Part shown: piece after piece, positions 8,269 to 21,384 of the stretch
Layout of the letters: each line of letters opens with the position of its first letter
Numbering within the stretch: position 1 is the stretch's first letter
Source of the DNA: a virus
Virus record (IMG/VR): IMGVR_UViG_3300025012_000291
Span: 1-22,865 of that record
Strand: one strand, 5' to 3'
Length of the DNA stretch: 22,865 bases
Translations under genes and position numbers: made by a program
The notes under the pieces: generated by a model
Databases searched by the model: none
What the model saw: the letters and a program-made list of their open reading frames with translations, nothing else
Told to the model about the DNA's origin: nothing

Positions 8269-8883
8269 TTATATTATCATTTCCTTAACCTCTGAGTATT
8301 CCCCATTATGCACAACCCCCCATACTTTATCTGCACCTTCGGCTATTTCAGGTATCTGAGAAACAATAATAAATTGTATATTAAGTTTATTACTGATCTC
8401 CTTAGTCATTTTTATTGCGTTTTCAATATTACCATGAAGAAACCTGAAAGGTTCATCCAGTATTATTATATTGTTAGATTTTGGATTCTTTATACTCCAT
8501 AAGACAATTCTAAATGCAAATGATGCAATATCTAATATACCACCCCCAACACTATTTGATGGATCAACCTCTTCACCTCGGATTAACAATTTTAGATTTG
8601 CTTCTGGTTTATTTCTTTTAATATCAAAATCTATTATAAATTTATAATCTTCTTCAAACACTGCTTGTAATGCTGTTGTTATCATACTTTCTATATATTC
8701 TTTAAGGTATGATTGTGTAAATTGACCTGCTTCAGCTACCAATGCCCTGGCCTTCTGCAAATCTTCATAATATACTTTTAGTTCCTCTAATCCATCTATT
8801 TTAGCATCATAAGATTTTTTATTAATTACATATTCAGTTTTAAATTCTAAAAATTTATCCTTTAATTCTTTAATATTTATCAT
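8269..8883 (-). CDS. sbcC: SbcC/Rad50-like ATPase, C-terminal half (204 aa)
   Basis: This carries only the C-terminal ATPase lobe of a Rad50/SbcC/T4-gp46 protein: ABC signature SVGGGILD (residues 111-118), Walker B IIILDEP (139-145) with D143/E144, and a switch region IIVSQIPEI. The first 75 residues are a short coiled coil. There is no Walker A; that is on the protein encoded at 11276-12343, so the enzyme is split between two genes about 2.4 kb apart. The full Rad50 head forms only when both lobes meet, so the two products must associate, presumably with SbcD (10201-11115), to resect DNA ends for recombination. The ATG sits in a GAGGATTTATGA overlap with the upstream gene. Confidence 0.88.
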   Translation of the reverse strand: MINIKELKDKFLEFKTEYVINKKSYDAKIDGLEELKVYYEDLQKARALVAEAGQFTQSYLKEYIESMITTALQAVFEEDYKFIIDFDIKRNKPEANLKLLIRGEEVDPSNSVGGGILDIASFAFRIVLWSIKNPKSNNIIILDEPFRFLHGNIENAIKMTKEISNKLNIQFIIVSQIPEIAEGADKVWGVVHNGEYSEVKEMII

Positions 8884-9245
8884 AAATCCTCACTATCAAA
8901 ATTTACTGTTATTTTGCATTTATTACATATCCTATTAAGTTTAGGGTCAATGCTATCAAAAATATTTGAACAACTTAAACATTCTATTTTATAGTATCTT
9001 TTATTGCATTTTTTTCTCCCCTGCCGGATTGGAAAAGATAAATTTCTATTAATAACTAACTCAGCTTTCTTTAAGACCTCATTCCAGGTGAGTTGATAAT
9101 GCTTATTTATATAAGAATATGAACATATTTTTTTATCACTTATATCATAGGAAGAATGTGTAATAGAATAGCGTGTTCCAGATACCAATTTCACATTCTG
9201 TATAAAGTCTGTTAGAAAAACTAATGACGTACCTATTGATTTCAT
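8880..9245 (-). CDS. protein with C-terminal zinc ribbon (121 aa)
   Basis: The last 35 residues contain CLSC ... CNKC (IECLSCSNIF, RICNKCKI), a four-cysteine zinc ribbon. The first 80 residues show strand-like alternation and a YINKHYQLTWNEVLKKAELV segment. It is coupled at both ends by 4-bp overlaps, between a coiled-coil protein and the SbcC C-terminal half. That position suggests a partner of the split SbcC complex, but no family is recognised. Confidence 0.75.
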   Translation of the reverse strand: MKSIGTSLVFLTDFIQNVKLVSGTRYSITHSSYDISDKKICSYSYINKHYQLTWNEVLKKAELVINRNLSFPIRQGRKKCNKRYYKIECLSCSNIFDSIDPKLNRICNKCKITVNFDSEDL

Positions 9246-9490
9246 ATAAAATTATATTTCTCTTTCAATTCGGTGTATTTATTTTCTAATTTAATTGTTA
9301 AAGATTCGATTTCTTTAATTAATTTTTGTACCATATCCTCAGCTTCTAATAAATTCTCTATACCAAAATCCTTCTTTAATGTTGATAAAAGTATTTTTTT
9401 CTGACCCCTTGCTTCTGCCAATTCGTTTCTTGATTTCTCGATACTGACTTTTACCTGTTTAATAGTTTTTTCAATCTCTGCATTATTCAT
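9242..9490 (-). CDS. small coiled-coil protein (82 aa)
   Basis: Almost the whole sequence is a heptad-rich charged helix (EIEKTIKQVKVSIEKSRNEL ... LLEAEDMVQKLIKEIESLTI). The ribosome site AAGGGAAAA precedes the ATG. It lies between the two halves of SbcC. Since the C-terminal SbcC half has only a short coiled coil, this protein may supply part of the missing descending coil; that is a structural guess. Confidence 0.72.
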   Translation of the reverse strand: MNNAEIEKTIKQVKVSIEKSRNELAEARGQKKILLSTLKKDFGIENLLEAEDMVQKLIKEIESLTIKLENKYTELKEKYNFI

Positions 9491-9676
9491 TTATTTTCCC
9501 TTTCTATGATATATTATTTTTCTCAGCAAACATTGCCTAACTCTTTTGTTTACACCATAATGACTTATATTAAATAAATTACAAAAAGAACCGTATTGAT
9601 TATAGATACAATAAGGATCACACATTTTTCTATCTTCTTTATTTATTAATATATCTATAGCTATTTTTACTTTCAT
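9491..9676 (-). CDS. small cysteine-containing protein (61 aa)
   Basis: The open frame has C-D-P-Y-C-I-Y-N and further cysteines at SFCNLF and RQCLLRK, which could bind zinc or form a small knot. The ribosome site for the ATG at 9676 is weak (GAAAG, far upstream). An internal ATG at the MCDPYC segment, with GAAGAT before it, is an alternative start giving about 44 aa. Stop abuts the next gene's ATG at 9490. Function unknown. Confidence 0.6.
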   Translation of the reverse strand: MKVKIAIDILINKEDRKMCDPYCIYNQYGSFCNLFNISHYGVNKRVRQCLLRKIIYHRKGK

Positions 9677-9680
9677 TTAT

Positions 9681-10208
9681 TTAATTACTTTCATTCTGAA
9701 TTATTATACCTAAATTCTTATCAATTGAATATTTAATAGTTCTTGTACCTTTTAATCTTGTATAAATACCATCATCTTTACATGATGAGGAACCCACATA
9801 ATTATTTTTAAATAAATCATATATAATTTGTACAATAGGTCTATCAAAAACTATACCATATTTTAGGTTAAACTCTTTTTCCATAGCTAATAATTCTGCT
9901 TGTATTCTGTGATAATTAAAATCAAAATTATTTTTTTTAAATGGTTTTACTAATTTTTGCAAACCACCATCTGTAATATAATAAGCAAGTCGCTCTTCCG
10001 GTACATACGAAACAAACATATAAGGTTCTGTTGGATAATCTATATATTTAGCAGATAATGATTCCCAAGGTCTTTCCCAAAAATGTGTAATTCTTTGAGC
10101 TTCTTGTAAAATATAAATACCAAATTTAGGTGCAAACAATCCCCCGTATTCATGTCTATAATCAATTTCTATACTTATGTTAGCTGTAATAGGTATACTT
10201 TTATTCAT
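9681..10208 (-). CDS. hypothetical protein (175 aa)
   Basis: Begins inside the end of sbcD (8-bp overlap) with GGAG from that gene as ribosome site. Aromatic-rich N-terminal half (IEIDYRHEYGGLFAPKFGIYIL ... HFWERPWESL) and a mixed C-terminal half. No motif for catalysis or metal binding stands out and no family is recognised. Its location between Mre11- and Rad50-type genes suggests a DNA-end-processing context only by association. Confidence 0.72.
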   Translation of the reverse strand: MNKSIPITANISIEIDYRHEYGGLFAPKFGIYILQEAQRITHFWERPWESLSAKYIDYPTEPYMFVSYVPEERLAYYITDGGLQKLVKPFKKNNFDFNYHRIQAELLAMEKEFNLKYGIVFDRPIVQIIYDLFKNNYVGSSSCKDDGIYTRLKGTRTIKYSIDKNLGIIIQNESN

Positions 10209-11115
10209 TTATTAACTCCAGTTCTTTTAATATTATATCTTTAACAGATTGTGCCACAGGTTGCATTAAAATATCAAGATTTTTTTTGAAATTAAGGTTT
10301 TTATCCATTGAATTATTCTTTATACTTGTTATAAATTCCTGTAATTTTTCATTATCTTTCTTTATATCTCTTGCCAATGCTTCTTTTTTGAATATCTTAT
10401 CAGCCGGTTCATGGTTGATTACTATTTTTTCAAGTGTGTATTCAAATGTATTTTCGTTAATATCTAATACATATATATGTGGTTCAAGATCGGCTTCATT
10501 AATAGTCTTCCTAACAAGACATCCACAGTTTAGTATTGTCTGATTCTTATACTGATAAAAAACCGGATGATGCCAGTCCCCTGAGACTATTATATCGTAC
10601 CCATTTTTAAACAGTTTATCTGAATGTAAATAGTCTTCTTGGCCAGGCCATACAGGTTTATCTAATATAGTACCATGAATTAATAATATATTGAACTTAT
10701 CTTTATCTTTTATTATAGGAATTTCTTCACCAAAATTACAACCATATAACTGTATATTAGTTGATAATGCCTTATCATTAACAGCCTCTAAATAACCTAA
10801 AAAATTCAATAATTTAGTAGCTGTTCTTTCCTTTGTGCGGAATCTACAATCATGCTGACCATAAACATGCAACAACTTTGTATCTTTACCTATATTATAT
10901 TTGTTGAATAATTCTATATAAGCCTCTAATAATTCAAAACTCGGCCTTGGTCCATCTGTAACATCCCCTGGTTGTAATATAAATTTACAGTCATAATGTT
11001 TAGCTATTTCAAATATTTGTTCAACTTTATTTAATTGTGTCTGAAAAAAGTTATCTACTCGATTTTCGGGGGTATTTGATCTTAAATGGAAATCACCTGT
11101 TAATATTAGTTTCAT
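10201..11115 (-). CDS. sbcD: SbcD/Mre11-like DNA nuclease (304 aa)
   Basis: Calcineurin-like phosphoesterase with the metal motifs in order: D8-x-H10 (TGDFHLR), G-D51-x-x-D54 (QPGDVTDG), GQHD at 86-89 in the place of the usual GNH(D/E), H146 (LLIHG) and GDWHH (178-182). The C-terminal part from about residue 230 is a helical cap for the Rad50 partner. Relatives (T4 gp47, E. coli SbcD) cut and resect double-strand ends with a Rad50/SbcC ATPase, here encoded in two pieces on either side. Start chosen at ATG with GAAGGG 8 nt upstream. Glutamine replacing asparagine in the third motif is visible; I believe phage members often have it, but cannot verify. Confidence 0.93.
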   Translation of the reverse strand: MKLILTGDFHLRSNTPENRVDNFFQTQLNKVEQIFEIAKHYDCKFILQPGDVTDGPRPSFELLEAYIELFNKYNIGKDTKLLHVYGQHDCRFRTKERTATKLLNFLGYLEAVNDKALSTNIQLYGCNFGEEIPIIKDKDKFNILLIHGTILDKPVWPGQEDYLHSDKLFKNGYDIIVSGDWHHPVFYQYKNQTILNCGCLVRKTINEADLEPHIYVLDINENTFEYTLEKIVINHEPADKIFKKEALARDIKKDNEKLQEFITSIKNNSMDKNLNFKKNLDILMQPVAQSVKDIILKELELINE

Positions 11116-11127
11116 TGATTTGACCCT

Positions 11128-11274
11128 TCATTTACAATAGTTACAAGGTTCTATATATATTATATGAAAATCTTCCTGTAAATTTTCTTCCACATTTTTT
11201 ATTTGTAGAGTTTCACCACAAACAGCACAATTTGTAAGTATTTTAATATATGTATCAATAGATACAGATTTCAT
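11128..11274 (-). CDS. zinc-ribbon miniprotein (48 aa)
   Basis: A minus-strand ATG follows AGGAGGTTTTAAA, one of the best ribosome sites in the window, which is itself encoded by the last four codons of the SbcC N-terminal half. The 48-residue product has two CxxC knuckles, CAVCGE at 16-21 and CNYCK at 44-48, separated by 24 residues: a minimal zinc ribbon. It sits between the SbcC N-half and SbcD. It may be an accessory subunit of the Mre11/Rad50-like complex, by position only. Confidence 0.78.
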   Translation of the reverse strand: MKSVSIDTYIKILTNCAVCGETLQIKNVEENLQEDFHIIYIEPCNYCK

Positions 11275-11275
11275 T

Positions 11276-12343
11276 TTAAAACCTCCTCATACACAAAGGA
11301 CAACCATAGTCCTTAATAATATTATTAAACTCTTTTTCATCTTTTTCTATCTTATCTTCTACTTCTTTAATCTCGATATTACCTTTATTCCATTTATCAA
11401 TTATATCAGAAATATGTGATAAATCAAGTCTTTTATTTTTTAATTTTTCATACTGTTCTTCAAATCGTATAATATAAAGCTCATCCTCAGTTACATTTTT
11501 TAATTTATCAATGATATTATCTATATTTTTTATAGATTCAATTATATATTGTGCATTTTTCAACATTTTTAAATTGGTATTATAAGTTATCCATGAGGAT
11601 TCTAAGATACCAATTTCATTATCTAAACCTTCAAATTTATATTCTAATTCTGTAATAATCTTATCTGCCTCATTAACCTCTTTTATTATATGACTCAAAG
11701 AAAATACTATAGCCTCGTCTTCTTTTGTATCTGCATCAAATTTTATTATCTTTGTAACTAATAATTCAATACCCTCTATGGATTTAAACTTTTTTAAATT
11801 TTCCTCCAATTTATCTAAATCGGTTTTTTTAAATTCAATCTCTTTGTTTATAGATAAAACTCTGGAATTGATATTAGAGATCAACTCATCAATTATATCT
11901 AATTTAACAATTTTATTGATTGTTCTACCCACCTCACCGGCAGATTCCATCAATAAGAAATGTTTATCAAATTGTGAACTTATATTTATATCCTCAATAT
12001 TTAAAATACCAGATACCTCTGAAGGTACATTACTACCTATCACATCAAAAACGGAGCTATCAATTTCGTATCTGTTAGCATTTGTATTTTTTATTCTTGA
12101 TATAATATGAGAATCTGAAGTATCCCCAATACCAACAGATACTTTACAATCATCTTTCTTATCACTTGATGTAGATTTAAAACTTAAACCACCTGGTTTA
12201 TTATTAATTAACCAGTTAAGAGACCTTAGAATTGCTGTTTTACCACAATTTGAATGACCCGTGATGACGTTTATACCTGTACAAAATTCTAAATAAGTAT
12301 TTTTATGACTTTGAAAATTTTCTATTCTTAGTGATTTAATCAT
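11276..12343 (-). CDS. sbcC: SbcC/Rad50-like ATPase, N-terminal half ending at the zinc hook (355 aa)
   Basis: The N-terminal lobe shows SLRIENFQSHKNT and Walker A GHSNCGKT (29-36), followed by globular sequence to about 150 and then about 185 residues of coiled coil. The protein stops directly after a zinc-hook motif, CPLC (348-351), with only MRRF beyond. A complete Rad50/SbcC would run back through a second coil to the signature and Walker B; these are in the separate gene at 8269-8883. The hook at the extreme C-terminus could still dimerise two molecules through one zinc. AAAGGATTGAGAA provides the start. Intact reading and a strong downstream ribosome site argue for a genuine split rather than a recent frameshift. 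Confidence 0.92.
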   Translation of the reverse strand: MIKSLRIENFQSHKNTYLEFCTGINVITGHSNCGKTAILRSLNWLINNKPGGLSFKSTSSDKKDDCKVSVGIGDTSDSHIISRIKNTNANRYEIDSSVFDVIGSNVPSEVSGILNIEDINISSQFDKHFLLMESAGEVGRTINKIVKLDIIDELISNINSRVLSINKEIEFKKTDLDKLEENLKKFKSIEGIELLVTKIIKFDADTKEDEAIVFSLSHIIKEVNEADKIITELEYKFEGLDNEIGILESSWITYNTNLKMLKNAQYIIESIKNIDNIIDKLKNVTEDELYIIRFEEQYEKLKNKRLDLSHISDIIDKWNKGNIEIKEVEDKIEKDEKEFNNIIKDYGCPLCMRRF

Positions 12344-13485: not shown

Positions 13486-14586
13486 TTAGGTTTTACCAGT
13501 AAACATTGTACTTTCGGTATTGATATTATCTGTAGAGTTTAAAAAGTTATCAGCTATTTCTTTAAATTCATATTTTGGTTTTCTTATGATTTTGGCCGCC
13601 TCCTCAATCTTATCCCAAGTTTCTTTAACTAAGTTCTTTATTTCTTGTTCTTTATTATTGTTACTTATGAACTGTATAAAACCCTCTCGTGTAAAACTTT
13701 GGTCTTCCCATAACAGTTTAGAATTATGTGAATTTGTACAAACCTTATTATCTTTTAAAAAATCTACCATACTACCTAAATCATCAATACCGTATTCAAA
13801 AAGTATATTAAAGTTTACCTCCCTAAAAGGTTTCCAACATCTATTTTTCTTAACCTTTGCTTTTATTTCAACACCTGTAGCAATATTTCCATCTTTTATC
13901 AGCCCTTTATTGTATAACCAAATGATTTGATAAGCATAAAAATCCAACGCTTTACCACCAGCCCGCCTTTTGGTTTCGCCAAAAGTAACACCTATTGCAT
14001 CTCTAATTTGAGAAACGACAATTAAAAGTACATTTTTCTTATTTATTTTTTGTGTTAATTTTCTAAATAGTTCAGATAATTTCTTTTGTTTAGTCATGTT
14101 ATAACTTTTAGCATTAAAATCTTGTTCCAATTCTTCTTCTGTTGAGATAGCATCCAAACTATCTAAAATATAGATAACAAGATCATACTTTTCTGAAGAT
14201 TCTATTTCTTTACTTAAATCAGCATACCAATGTTCTATGGTAGGTGATTGCCTGAAATCAATAGCCTCAATAGGAACGCCAAGCAATACTGCACCATCGA
14301 CATTAAGTGCTGATTCCGTATCATTATATATCATTTTTATATCATATTTTTTTGAAATTATATAATGTGCATACATCATAACTTCAAGGCATAAAAGGCT
14401 TTTACCCAGAGCCTTGTCCCCAACTAAATTCACAATTTTACCAACCGGATAACCTTGCTCTAAGTTATTAGTTAGAGCAAGGTTAAGATTTGTACTACCA
14501 CTTGAGATATATTTTAGATCTCTTGGAGACTCTATAGATACTTTTTCTTCATCTATTTCTACCGATTCCTTCTTTTTTCTACCCAT
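13486..14586 (-). CDS. recA: RecA/UvsX-family recombinase (366 aa)
   Basis: ATP-dependent strand-exchange protein. Walker A GDKALGKS (56-63), the glutamate preceding Walker B in NDTESALN (E91), Walker B LVIYILDSLDA (136-146) with D142, and an L2-like stretch VSQIRDAIGVTFGE followed by KRRAGGKALDFYA. The N-terminal 20 residues are highly charged and the last 60 are a variable C-terminal extension. Length is near that of T4 UvsX (about 390) and bacterial RecA (about 350). It overlaps ssb by one base (TAATG) behind CAGGAG, so recombinase and SSB are made in one unit with the candidate mediator. Confidence 0.94.
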   Translation of the reverse strand: MGRKKKESVEIDEEKVSIESPRDLKYISSGSTNLNLALTNNLEQGYPVGKIVNLVGDKALGKSLLCLEVMMYAHYIISKKYDIKMIYNDTESALNVDGAVLLGVPIEAIDFRQSPTIEHWYADLSKEIESSEKYDLVIYILDSLDAISTEEELEQDFNAKSYNMTKQKKLSELFRKLTQKINKKNVLLIVVSQIRDAIGVTFGETKRRAGGKALDFYAYQIIWLYNKGLIKDGNIATGVEIKAKVKKNRCWKPFREVNFNILFEYGIDDLGSMVDFLKDNKVCTNSHNSKLLWEDQSFTREGFIQFISNNNKEQEIKNLVKETWDKIEEAAKIIRKPKYEFKEIADNFLNSTDNINTESTMFTGKT

Positions 14587-17400: not shown

Positions 17401-20400
17401 TTAGTATCCAAATATCTCTTTTGTTTCAATTGTATTATACCAATCCAATCCTATTGTTGAGGATATTTCAAGTGGTACATTTAACATAAAATCAAATTCT
17501 TTAACTGTCATTATCTCAGACATCTCTTCATACGCATATTTAGCATCCTCCTCTTTCACACAAATAACTATTTCATCGTGACAGTTGAGGTATACCCAAT
17601 AACCTCTTTCTACCAATTTATTCATTGCTCTACATACTATAGAACTTGAACTATTATGTACAATAAAATTATTTGCCATAAACCTACCACTTTCTGAATT
17701 AATTATATCATACATATCAATATATTCATCTGTAATATCAATTGATTCAATTGTCTCTGTTCTTCTTATAACCTCTGTTATTTTTTTTATTTCAATATTT
17801 TGTATTTTTTGCTGTTTTGTGTTATTCAGAAAACCTATTTCGGTTATAAAGGTTTTACAATCTTTTTTTCTAATTGATAGATTAGTTCTTTCTTTCATTT
17901 TATTTAATCTACTTTGAATACCAAATAGAAGTAGAGCATGTTGAATTTCATGTGCCATTTTTTCTGATAACTTTGGGAAATTTTTACCAAAACAAAGAAC
18001 TATATTATCCTTATTAATAGTACCATCACCATCAAAAATACCTTGCAAAAAACCCCTTAAACATTCTTTATTTCCCCAAATCCAAGTAGGTATCTCTTTT
18101 CTTAAATATTTAATCCTATGCACTAGTTCAAAACAAAATATATTTATTTTCCATATTTTTTGATTTCTATTCTTTCTTATTATTTCATAAATAGAAGGCT
18201 TACTTATTAAACTAATTTGTTCAATTAAATAATTTAAAATATTCTTTTCATGTTCAGCTATAATCCAACTAAGTTGACCTTTACCTTTTTTATATTCTAT
18301 TGACCCATCCGTAATTAATCGCCCTAAAATTACACCCAAATTAAAATCCGATAGTGACTCAAAATTAAAATAATTCTTATTTGGTGCAATTCTTTTTAAT
18401 AATCTACTTTCTACATAATTAGGTAATTGTAACTTATTATTTATTTGTTCTACCTTATCCGATAGTCTAATTCTTATATTCTTATAATTCTTTCCCTGTA
18501 ATTCTCTCGCAGTTTTCCAAATCTCAGATCCCTGCGTATTAACATAAAGTAATTTATGATCTGGACTACATTCAAAAATTTGACCATTCTGAAATTTTAT
18601 TTTTACTTTTTGTTTTTTCCCTGAATAAGCACAAGAAGCCTTAACATATTTTTTACCATCCCATATTTCAATATCTTTTTCCCTTATACAATCTTTAATA
18701 TCTATAAATCCTTTGTCTTTGATATATATTTTAGATTCCCCACTTATACAGCCTTGCACAGGCGTGTTAAGTATTTTATTAGTTGTTAATGGTGCGTATC
18801 TCCTACGGCCAGGAGGTATTTCTACATATCTTTTTTTATTATAAATTTTTAAAACCTCGTTTTGCCATATCTTTATTTCAGGATATTCGTTAAATAATTT
18901 ATCATATAATTGTTGTGCATGTTCTATAGAAATACCAAGTCTGTTAGCGGTAGATTTAGGTGTAGAACCATAAAAAGTAGGAAATACAAAACTACTTTTT
19001 GCATTAAATCTTAGTAATTTTAATAATTTTTTATCCGCATTCTTTATAACTTCTTCACCATAGATTTCTATCGCTTTACCATAATGAATATCATAACCAT
19101 CTATTATGGCTTTAATAAGATTTGTACAATTACTTAATGCTGCTATTATTCGGGCTTCTAATTGTCCTTCATCCGCAATTAATAATACATGACCAGGTGG
19201 TGCACAAATCAATTGTCTTATCTCTGGATGCTTTCTCTTATCTAAATTTTGTAAATTCAGATTATTGGATGAATTATGTACACATATTTCATTCGCAATA
19301 AAATTATTTGTATCTTCAACTTCGATATCATAAACAGGTACTTCTTGATCGAGATATTCTATACTTGTTATGTAATGGTTATATTTATTACCCCATTTTA
19401 TAGATATATTCATAGCCAACACACTATCCATCACAGATAAATTTTTTGCTTCAATATATTCACCTGACGCTAATCTTACTTTATGCTCAGGAGTTATATC
19501 TGTAAAGCCTTGTTTTCTACTACCACTACCTCTCCAGTGTAATCTAATTACTTTCTTTATTCCGGTTTGACCTGTCCATATTACTTTTTTTAATTTTAAA
19601 TTTAATTCATCATCAAAAGTATAAACAAAATCATTTACTTTAATATCTTCTATATTTATACCATCTGGATGAACTGATCTATCACAAATAGTTTGTATCT
19701 TTGTTCCTTTAGCTATACAAAGCCTACCTGTCTCTACAAAATAAAAATTAGTATGATACTTGCCATCTGGATAAACACATTCTGTATAACTCTTGAGCAT
19801 TTTACTTTCAGCACCACTATATTCTCTGTACTGAAGTAAAAGATCACAAAATAAACTACCTCTTTCAGAGAACTTATTTAATACCTCTTTATCAATTGAA
19901 ATATTACCCCGCTTAGTTTTTTTAAATGATAACTGATGCTCAATATCGAATAATATAATAGGTATATCTTTACTATTAGAATTTAATAATGGTTTTCTTC
20001 CGTGTATTGAGGTAAAAGTTTTTATACAATCCAATAAAGCAATATCGTTTTCTATTTCTTCCTTTTTCGCTGTAAATATTTTTAGTAAATTATGCCTACT
20101 ATCAGAATTAGTACATGCACCATCGAATTGCATCTTAGCTATTGATCGTGCAGTTCTTATCTGTTCGTAATATTGTTCTTTTAATTTCTTGTCATTATCT
20201 AAATAATTACTTTGTATATTATATAATCTATGTTCAAATATTGTATCTGTCCCATTATATTCAAGTAGCTCATCCACTGATATTTGTGTTAAATTACTCA
20301 TTATATGTTGAGGGTATTTTTTCCATCTAACACCAAAAGTAGCAAAGGCCAAAAAATCAAGATTCATAGTACCACGTCTACAATCTAATATATATTTTTG

Positions 20401-21384
20401 TAGCATAGTATCTTCTAAATCCTTTAACTGGATACCAAACATAGCTAATGACCATTCAGATTCAAATATAAGATTATGTATTATCTTTGTTATGCCATCT
20501 TTAGCTAATAAACTTTTTAACTTATCAAGGATAGTCTTTTCTTGAATATCGCTCCAGTATTTTATCTTTGTATAATGATCATAATAACTAACAGGGAATG
20601 TATAAGATATATTTTCATCAAAAGATATCGCAACGGATAATATACATGAATCAGGAAAATAAGGCTTAGTACCTATCGTCTCAAAATCAATAGTAAATTT
20701 ATTATATTTAATAACTATATTATCAAAGAAGTCTATAACCTCATTGAATTTTATTAATTTTTTTATCTCATAGGATTTATTCTTAGGAATACTTAATTTA
20801 ATTAACTCAGGAACTATGGAAAGATTTTCTCTTAAAACTCTCAATGTATCGGTATAATTAGTCTGTTTATCCCAATATTTTTCATCCCCCGGTATACCAT
20901 CATCTATAACTTTTTGTGGATTATATGTTGGAACTATCCAACAATTAAGATCATGTGATGGTATCTGCCATCCAGTCCACCCATGAATACCAGGTTCTGA
21001 TTGATTAAACAAAGATTTAAGAGAAGAATTACCACAAGCAATTATTACTTTAGGTTTAGCTTTTTTAATATCAATTAAAACTTTATTTCTACAAATATTT
21101 ATATAAGTATCAGTCGGCTCATCCCCCTCTTTAGGTTTACAATTAACTGCTCTATAATATCTAATCCTTGATTGATCAATACCTAATTGTCCCAATAAAT
21201 GAACAATTAGGTATATGGGTTTATTCAATAGAGAAGACTTTCCCATCAAATCCTCTCTATTAGAAGGGTACTCATTAAGAATATAAACATCTGGTGTATC
21301 ACTACCTATTGCAGGGATATCAATAGATTTACACCCCTTATGCAAATCACAATTTCGACAAATATCTTCTTCAAATAAGAACAT
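17401..21384 (-). CDS. polA: UDG-fused family A DNA polymerase with two inteins (1327 aa precursor)
   Basis: Domains in order: a family-4 uracil-DNA-glycosylase-like domain (1-165) with iron-sulfur cysteines C9, C12, C82 and C98; a 3'-5' exonuclease (D233-x-E235, N304, Y376-x3-D380); and a PolA palm/fingers domain with motif A ADEGQLEAR (D738), motif B R792-x3-K796 ... YG, and motif C CHDE (H1269-D1270-E1271). Two inteins interrupt it: 556-704 after TGRL and 879-1244 after NTPVQG; splicing would leave an 812-aa enzyme. The glycosylase HP motif is altered (TYNPQ), so it may only bind uracil. SPO1-type phage polymerases have a similar UDG fusion. The start overlaps the clamp stop (TAATG) with no separate ribosome site, so translation is probably coupled. 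Confidence 0.95.
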   Translation of the reverse strand: MFLFEEDICRNCDLHKGCKSIDIPAIGSDTPDVYILNEYPSNREDLMGKSSLLNKPIYLIVHLLGQLGIDQSRIRYYRAVNCKPKEGDEPTDTYINICRNKVLIDIKKAKPKVIIACGNSSLKSLFNQSEPGIHGWTGWQIPSHDLNCWIVPTYNPQKVIDDGIPGDEKYWDKQTNYTDTLRVLRENLSIVPELIKLSIPKNKSYEIKKLIKFNEVIDFFDNIVIKYNKFTIDFETIGTKPYFPDSCILSVAISFDENISYTFPVSYYDHYTKIKYWSDIQEKTILDKLKSLLAKDGITKIIHNLIFESEWSLAMFGIQLKDLEDTMLQKYILDCRRGTMNLDFLAFATFGVRWKKYPQHIMSNLTQISVDELLEYNGTDTIFEHRLYNIQSNYLDNDKKLKEQYYEQIRTARSIAKMQFDGACTNSDSRHNLLKIFTAKKEEIENDIALLDCIKTFTSIHGRKPLLNSNSKDIPIILFDIEHQLSFKKTKRGNISIDKEVLNKFSERGSLFCDLLLQYREYSGAESKMLKSYTECVYPDGKYHTNFYFVETGRLCIAKGTKIQTICDRSVHPDGINIEDIKVNDFVYTFDDELNLKLKKVIWTGQTGIKKVIRLHWRGSGSRKQGFTDITPEHKVRLASGEYIEAKNLSVMDSVLAMNISIKWGNKYNHYITSIEYLDQEVPVYDIEVEDTNNFIANEICVHNSSNNLNLQNLDKRKHPEIRQLICAPPGHVLLIADEGQLEARIIAALSNCTNLIKAIIDGYDIHYGKAIEIYGEEVIKNADKKLLKLLRFNAKSSFVFPTFYGSTPKSTANRLGISIEHAQQLYDKLFNEYPEIKIWQNEVLKIYNKKRYVEIPPGRRRYAPLTTNKILNTPVQGCISGESKIYIKDKGFIDIKDCIREKDIEIWDGKKYVKASCAYSGKKQKVKIKFQNGQIFECSPDHKLLYVNTQGSEIWKTARELQGKNYKNIRIRLSDKVEQINNKLQLPNYVESRLLKRIAPNKNYFNFESLSDFNLGVILGRLITDGSIEYKKGKGQLSWIIAEHEKNILNYLIEQISLISKPSIYEIIRKNRNQKIWKINIFCFELVHRIKYLRKEIPTWIWGNKECLRGFLQGIFDGDGTINKDNIVLCFGKNFPKLSEKMAHEIQHALLLFGIQSRLNKMKERTNLSIRKKDCKTFITEIGFLNNTKQQKIQNIEIKKITEVIRRTETIESIDITDEYIDMYDIINSESGRFMANNFIVHNSSSSIVCRAMNKLVERGYWVYLNCHDEIVICVKEEDAKYAYEEMSEIMTVKEFDFMLNVPLEISSTIGLDWYNTIETKEIFGY
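17653..18750 (-). mobile_element. polymerase intein 2 with LAGLIDADG homing endonuclease (366 aa)
   Basis: Residues 879-1244 of the polymerase precursor. It starts CISGESKIYI and ends NNFIVHN, followed by Ser. Splicing block B SPDH is at 940-943. The endonuclease has two LAGLIDADG helices, ILGRLITDG (1019-1027) and LQGIFDGDG (1113-1121), with acidic residues D1026 and D1120 both intact, so both splicing and homing may be active. It sits in the conserved NTPVQG/S motif of the PolA fingers-palm junction, where imprecise loss would kill the enzyme. Confidence 0.93.
19273..19719 (-). mobile_element. polymerase intein 1, mini-intein without endonuclease (149 aa)
   Basis: Residues 556-704 of the polymerase precursor. 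It begins CIAKGTKIQT, has block B TPEH (631-634) and ends VPVYDIEVEDTNNFIANEI then CVHN before Ser. C1, block-B His, penultimate His and terminal Asn are all present, so self-splicing is expected. At 149 aa it has no LAGLIDADG or HNH domain. Inserted between TGRL and SSNNLNLQN, a primer-template-binding motif of PolA. Joined exteins restore TGRLSSNNLNLQN. Confidence 0.93.

Follow-up and report, generated by a model that had tools for sequence, protein, structure and literature searches.

Models of Rad50, part of a machine for the repair of DNA breaks, have a single chain that leaves the ATPase head, turns at the zinc hook and returns. The viral DNA analysed here, IMG/VR record IMGVR_UViG_3300025012_000291 (22,865 nucleotides, hereafter the window), encodes SbcC/Rad50 on two separate genes, and the first of them stops just past the hook motif. 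The locus thus raises the question whether it is a broken gene or a working split and, if a split, what stands in for the absent return strand.

Results

Parts of the window locus

The initial annotation had put Walker A, one coil and a CPLC hook on a 355-aa protein, the signature and Walker B on a 204-aa protein, and the break four residues past the hook. The reading frames bear all of this out. The two lobes lie on two genes rather than one polypeptide, and the first chain ends CPLCMRRF.

11276..12343, minus strand: N-chain (SbcC/Rad50), 355 aa, with ABC lobe I, outgoing coil and C-terminal CxxC (reading frame, Pfam, PHROG and structure profiles)
12236..12259, minus strand: GHSNCGKT, Walker A, N-chain residues 29-36 (position from the sequence)
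11291..11302, minus strand: CPLC, putative half-hook, N-chain residues 348-351, four residues before the stop
10201..11115, minus strand: SbcD/Mre11-like nuclease subunit, 304 aa (Pfam, PHROG)
9242..9490, minus strand: mini-coil (m), 82 aa, a predicted two-helix coil and conserved third chain
8269..8883, minus strand: C-chain (SbcC/Rad50), 204 aa, with a short coil and ABC lobe II
8539..8550, minus strand: VGGG, signature position, C-chain residues 112-115 (position and alignments)
8449..8469, minus strand: IIILDEP, Walker B, C-chain residues 139-145 (position and alignment)
13486..14586, minus strand: phage RecA homologue, upstream of the module

On the minus strand from 12343 to 8269, the order is the N-chain, a 48-aa frame, SbcD, 175-aa and 61-aa frames, the mini-coil, a 121-aa frame and the C-chain, with spacings of -7 to +13 bases. 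A part in the complex for the zinc-ribbon and unknown in-between genes is not supported, as compact relatives leave no space for them. The N-chain, SbcD, mini-coil and C-chain genes can overlap directly there (e.g. L007), so the window genes between the halves are mostly outside the module. The recA neighbourhood is common to other phages and to bacterial chromosomes.

Elsewhere in the window, a 1327-aa DNA polymerase A (17401-21384, minus strand) carries a UDG-like N-terminal domain and intein splicing matches, one region of which has a LAGLIDADG domain. At the contig end, 33-bp tandem repeats run for 5.4-5.9 copies (1-227).

Probable halves of one Rad50-like head

The N-half matches Pfam AAA_23 (E 2e-16) and PHROG phrog_16465 (E 1e-25), and its family profile finds Rad50 5f3w among solved structures (E 3e-22). 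Judged by these matches, it is a Rad50-like ABC lobe I with Walker A. Its AlphaFold2 model (pLDDT 80.7) agrees over the first ~180 residues, which match Rad50 and SMC heads.

The C-half matches phrog_15167 (E 1e-21) and, below threshold only, Pfam SMC_N, and its family profile finds Rad50 3qkr_B (E 6e-18). By these profiles and its alignment, it is a Rad50-like ABC lobe II that carries the signature and a Walker B in which D143 is invariant and E144 near-invariant. PF13558 does not match the window C-half, and this half as a single-protein query found no relative in viral contigs. No TIGR00618 row was listed for any of the four split halves scanned. The window SbcD matches Metallophos (E 8e-10) and phrog_100 (E 3e-13), and an SbcD is present at all 68 nonredundant complete loci described below.

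Both CxxC cysteines are invariant in the N-chain alignment A7. The motif ends the N-chain in the window and in all 161 complete loci, a count in which CxxC within the last 45 aa is part of the definition. The hook is not universal among split N-chains, given Microbacterium phage Magritte, whose N-chain (L224) lacks the terminal CxxC although its mini-coil and C-chain are present. Two further N-chain genes are irregular. One (L043, 9001-10387) is interrupted by ~490 bases between two parts, possibly an intron or an insert, and the other, in a draft genome (L090, 7965-9421), lies in two adjoining frames.

Recurrence in phages and bacterial chromosomes

A survey of homologous phages had been suggested as a check, and it finds the same split in 56 complete viral loci. 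Viral contigs were scanned twice, yielding 43 and 27 loci that partly share contigs, and a scan of genome contigs gave 45. Pieces of records (L001, L003-L006) were set aside before counting, and loci at contig ends are reported as cut. Among the 73 viral and phage loci, the window included, the 56 complete split pairs all have the mini-coil and one locus, L050, encodes a single chain. That leaves 16 loci with an N-chain only (7), a C-chain only (5) or fragments (4), most of them truncated at a contig end.

Bacillus phage vB_BboS-125, Microcystis phage Mvi-JY20 and a 485-kb uncultured phage each carry the N-chain, SbcD, mini-coil and C-chain. In phage Magritte the parts are scattered, with the N-chain near 93.8 kb, Mre11 at 119.7 kb, the mini-coil at 127.2 kb and the C-chain at 0.3-0.9 kb.

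The initial annotation missed that the same system is chromosomal in bacteria. The 45 genome-contig loci comprise 36 complete pairs, 36 of 36 with the mini-coil, two cut loci and seven other proteins. The single chains of 601-603 aa with weak N-half matches (L124-L130) were dropped as different proteins. In the complete genome of Alkalihalophilus pseudofirmus OF4, the order is recA, SbcD, N-chain, mini-coil, C-chain and rny. Over 38 split genome loci, recA is upstream in 34, and recA and rny flank the module in 29.

At E <= 1e-20 the C-half profile has a match in at least 49 of the 299 Bacillota genomes sampled; all but one of the matching frames are 155-282 aa long. The carriers mostly have an SbcD-N-m-C operon, often beside recA. 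It also finds at least 16 of 249 genomes in the order of G001 and at least 25 of 341 in the class of G003; these three larger searches scored 9-12 candidates per genome, so their counts are lower bounds. The class of G056 gave 19 of 20.

From the 299-genome sample, 40 of 52 places were fetched, of which 37 are complete, all with the mini-coil. The remaining three are a cut locus (L132), a C-chain with mini-coil only (L170) and a fusion (L131). A further 40 regions gave 32 complete loci, 31 with the mini-coil, two cut loci and six with the C-chain alone. Altogether, 161 loci are complete, 56 viral and 105 from bacterial genomes, and 160 have the mini-coil. They are not all independent, with 68 nonredundant among those known when mini-coil lengths were compared. 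The split is thus a widespread variant and not a peculiarity of one phage.

In most of the carriers checked, the split form apparently stands in for canonical SbcC. A long TIGR00618 match, in a frame of 1032-1148 aa, is found in 5 of 28 carrier genomes; the curated TIGR00618 cut-off is passed in none of the 28, yet by only 1 of 14 controls. PF13558 exceeds its cut-off in 7 of 28 carriers, the same five and two more, versus 12 of 14 controls. Those two (G012, G025) have PF13558 in frames of 1073 and 1399 aa without a long TIGR00618 match, and their canonical SbcC status is ambiguous. The other 21 carriers have neither.

Separated operons, a fusion and the head tree

In six genomes in the class of G003 (L196, L203, L205, L206, L207, L209), the C-chain gene stands alone next to rny with no N-chain gene there. 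It lies between rny and a gene that, from the sequence of four of the loci, we take to be folD. The N-chain is found elsewhere in all six, and the distant locus reads SbcD, N-chain, mini-coil in all six. Two of these genomes have both genes on one contig, at distances of 1.1 Mb (G781) and 0.33 Mb (G837).

The opposite arrangement occurs at L131 (G072:C6:150000-160000), where SbcD, lobe I and lobe II are fused in 700 aa and the coil and CxxC are lost. No mini-coil is found within its 10 kb.

A tree of the two head lobes, made by a quick method from 99 rows, sets 88 split rows and the L131 re-fusion apart from 10 single-chain rows by one separating branch (SH-aLRT 98), and L131 nests inside the split group. 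The split rows were reduced from 126 to 88 by leaving out incomplete N- or C-chains, L043, L090 and near-identical rows. The single-chain rows are SbcC of E. coli, two Bacillus and one Sutcliffiella together with six phage forms. The split forms are one group on this head tree. A single origin is not proved, since the single-chain sampling is thin and has no archaeal Rad50.

Covariation and the N-chain coil

Covariation between the chains was computed from 122 triples of N-chain, mini-coil and C-chain with an effective number of 91. They come from longer-arm loci (CxxC at 400-520) and are mostly bacterial with some phage rows; six were joined across loci and the window is not included. The ranking leaves out column pairs less than six apart within one chain. 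Among the pairs listed, the top score (z 8.9) belongs to N218-C16 in A. pseudofirmus numbering. Their charges are opposite in 92 of the 93 rows where both are charged. Mapped on the head tree, the signs change 13 and 14 times; all six independent pairs agree (p 0.03).

That the N and C halves assemble is well supported by these alignments, because the column pair that covaries most strongly has one residue in each chain, with charges opposite and swapped. Eight of the 12 most anticorrelated pairs between the coils (218-16, 204-30, 179-46, 199-29, 196-29, 189-42, 180-51 and 171-51, N-chain first) have position sums of 222-234, which points to an antiparallel coil over about N171-218. The 23 window-type rows gave no covariation signal; in the alignment, the start of the window C-chain falls at roughly the place expected for C16.

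The N-chain coil may fold back in the AlphaFold2 model, and the CxxC need not sit at the apex. The model contains a turn flanked by two helices of much the same length, 188-261 and 267-346. On this reading, the terminal CxxC would be a local zinc site near the head and the C-chain would add only the last part of the return. In its favour, pairing of the C-chain coil is confined to about the first 50 coil residues, and this coil changes little in length as the N-chain lengthens. Against it, the break at 262-266 is predicted at low confidence, and self-covariation of the N-chain coil has no antidiagonal (hairpin) ridge, its best score there being 8.2 versus 9.7 on parallel diagonals. The CPxCG-type ending also resembles a Rad50 hook. 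We consider the fold-back possible but rather unlikely.

The same self-covariation in the 122 triples peaks at offsets of ~47-48, 55 and 95 residues, suggesting an internal coil repeat.

The mini-coil

The AlphaFold2 model of the mini-coil (pLDDT 94) has two helices, 3-42 and 47-78 (40 and 32 residues), joined by a four-residue turn. Among 7138 frames from the viral and phage loci and the window, a mini-coil profile matches 66, each at a different locus; among 584 frames from eight single-chain loci it matches none at E <= 0.01, the best value being 0.013. Outside the true mini-coils it has two matches at E 4e-3, an N-chain coil (L118) and an antisense frame (L112). At L200 only the end of the mini-coil is kept, and a near-identical sister (L208) has the whole. 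A mini-coil fusion to the C-chain, suspected from long open frames in G905 and G906, proved to be overlapping frames.

No family in Pfam, PHROGs or NCBIfam contains the mini-coil; the searches gave sub-threshold coiled-coil matches only and no PHROG. Foldseek with the model has no match at E <= 0.001. The profile search against structures has only a weak and composition-prone Rad50-coil match (6zff, E 0.007).

The mini-coil is 75-111 aa long (median 83) while the N-chain CxxC lies anywhere from 222 to 505, and the mini-coil and N-chain lengths do not correlate (rho 0.06, p 0.67). The C-chain signature position shifts slightly with N-chain length (rho 0.62, about 15 residues). Since the mini-coil is constant and the C-chain shift slight, the two together cannot pair one-to-one with the whole outgoing coil. 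In the window, we estimate about 200 N-chain coil residues versus about 72 in the mini-coil and about 45 in the C-chain. In the 122 triples, covariation of the mini-coil with either chain does not rise above the positive (noise) tail.

The suggestion that the 82-aa protein completes the returning coil is thus borne out in part. It accompanies the split almost without exception and remains beside the N-chain in all six broken operons, while the completion itself is unproven, with no length relation and no placement from covariation. The constant length and the lack of resolved covariation would also suit a regulator or an assembly factor that is merely co-expressed. Such a role is harder to reconcile with its presence in 160 of 161 complete loci, its place beside the distant N-chain and its absence at the coil-less fusion, and we regard it as doubtful, though a real possibility. 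The mini-coil has the look of a third subunit belonging to the N-chain coil; it is a conserved third partner whose position on the N-chain we infer.

Discussion

Two readings deny the split itself. One is that the halves are unrelated ATPases with no joint head. We found no support for it; lobe I matches N parts and lobe II C parts of Rad50, and the charges at N218 and C16 are opposite almost throughout, so this is highly improbable. The other, that one true chain is hidden by a frameshift, by misassembly or by gene decay, would have precedent in the single broken copies (L090, L043), but it is next to inconceivable where the break falls just past CxxC in 161 loci, SbcD or mini-coil genes often lie between, both lobes are conserved, the halves are far apart in six genomes and the split recurs in complete genomes (e.g. 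L098). The initial annotation had named a read-error break as what would overturn a functional split; instead, recurrence, one tree group, covariation between the chains and halves encodable far apart all argue for a complex assembled from pieces.

The window thus very probably encodes a phage version of an SbcC/Rad50 made of three chains and acting together with SbcD. The N-chain holds lobe I, an outgoing coil and half of a putative CxxC hook, and the C-chain a short coil and lobe II. The short coil would lie antiparallel on the head-proximal N-chain coil and join the lobes into one ABC head, a contact seen in the longer-armed, mostly bacterial homologues and transferred to the window by homology.

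Two such heads would enclose ATP between them and act as the gate of an SbcD dimer that would process DNA ends or hairpins. Two N-chains may meet through their terminal CxxC around zinc. The mini-coil may pack on the stretch of N-chain coil beyond the reach of the C-chain and stiffen it, replacing the missing return strand. Consistent with a mini-coil that follows the coil, the coil-less fusion has none within its 10 kb and the eight single-chain loci have no match at E <= 0.01.

A broader statement, to which we give an even chance, is that nature has a heteromeric SbcC/Rad50 whose third subunit is obligate and as yet unnamed. Its open-ended N-chain would stop at the hook, its C-chain could come from a gene a megabase off and the mini-coil would stand in place of the return strand. 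It would be the only SbcCD in many Bacillota, so that the paired return coil, regarded as central to Rad50, could be either dispensable or supplied in trans.

The natural cut lies at the hook, and the cut form extends across much of the sampled Bacillota and diverse phages. Head, outgoing arm, hook and return arm would be deletable or swappable as separate genes. The analysis also identifies a conserved small protein without an assigned function. Moreover, the two halves separately match phrog_16465, labelled 'exonuclease', and phrog_15167, labelled 'ATPase'; neither printed label says that these are halves of one ATPase, and the split accounts for both entries as the two parts of a single machine.

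No description of a split SbcC/Rad50 was found in the open-access literature searched, including the accessible parts of PMC3175470, PMC6375668, PMC7824862, PMC1193525, PMC6452273, PMC12153180 and PMC4605624; subscription papers and preprints were mostly outside the search, and an earlier description may exist elsewhere. The accessible part of PMC3175470 treats the Mimivirus-type Mre11/Rad50 fusions, in which the gene boundary is rearranged by fusion, and describes no split at the hook. Both systems rearrange the Mre11/Rad50 boundary, by fusion there and by splitting here, with L131 as a fusion within the split group.

Phage T4 gp46/gp47 and T5 D13/D12 are likewise Rad50/Mre11 pairs adjoining replication genes. 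Their ATPase is a single chain (560 and 612 aa in the fetched relatives), has no mini-coil match and falls on the other side of the tree.

Rad50 head structures with separate N and C chains (1f2t/1f2u, 1ii8, 3qkr) are a precedent for a two-chain head. The P. furiosus crystals 1f2t/1f2u have the N and C parts as separate chains as here, though that split was made in the laboratory, close to the head and without hook or mini-coil.

The split system shares with SbcCD and Mre11-Rad50 the homologous lobes I and II, the coil, the CxxC and the SbcD partner. It differs in having a head built from two gene products, a chain that stops at the CxxC and an added conserved mini-coil, and in encoding no long return strand.
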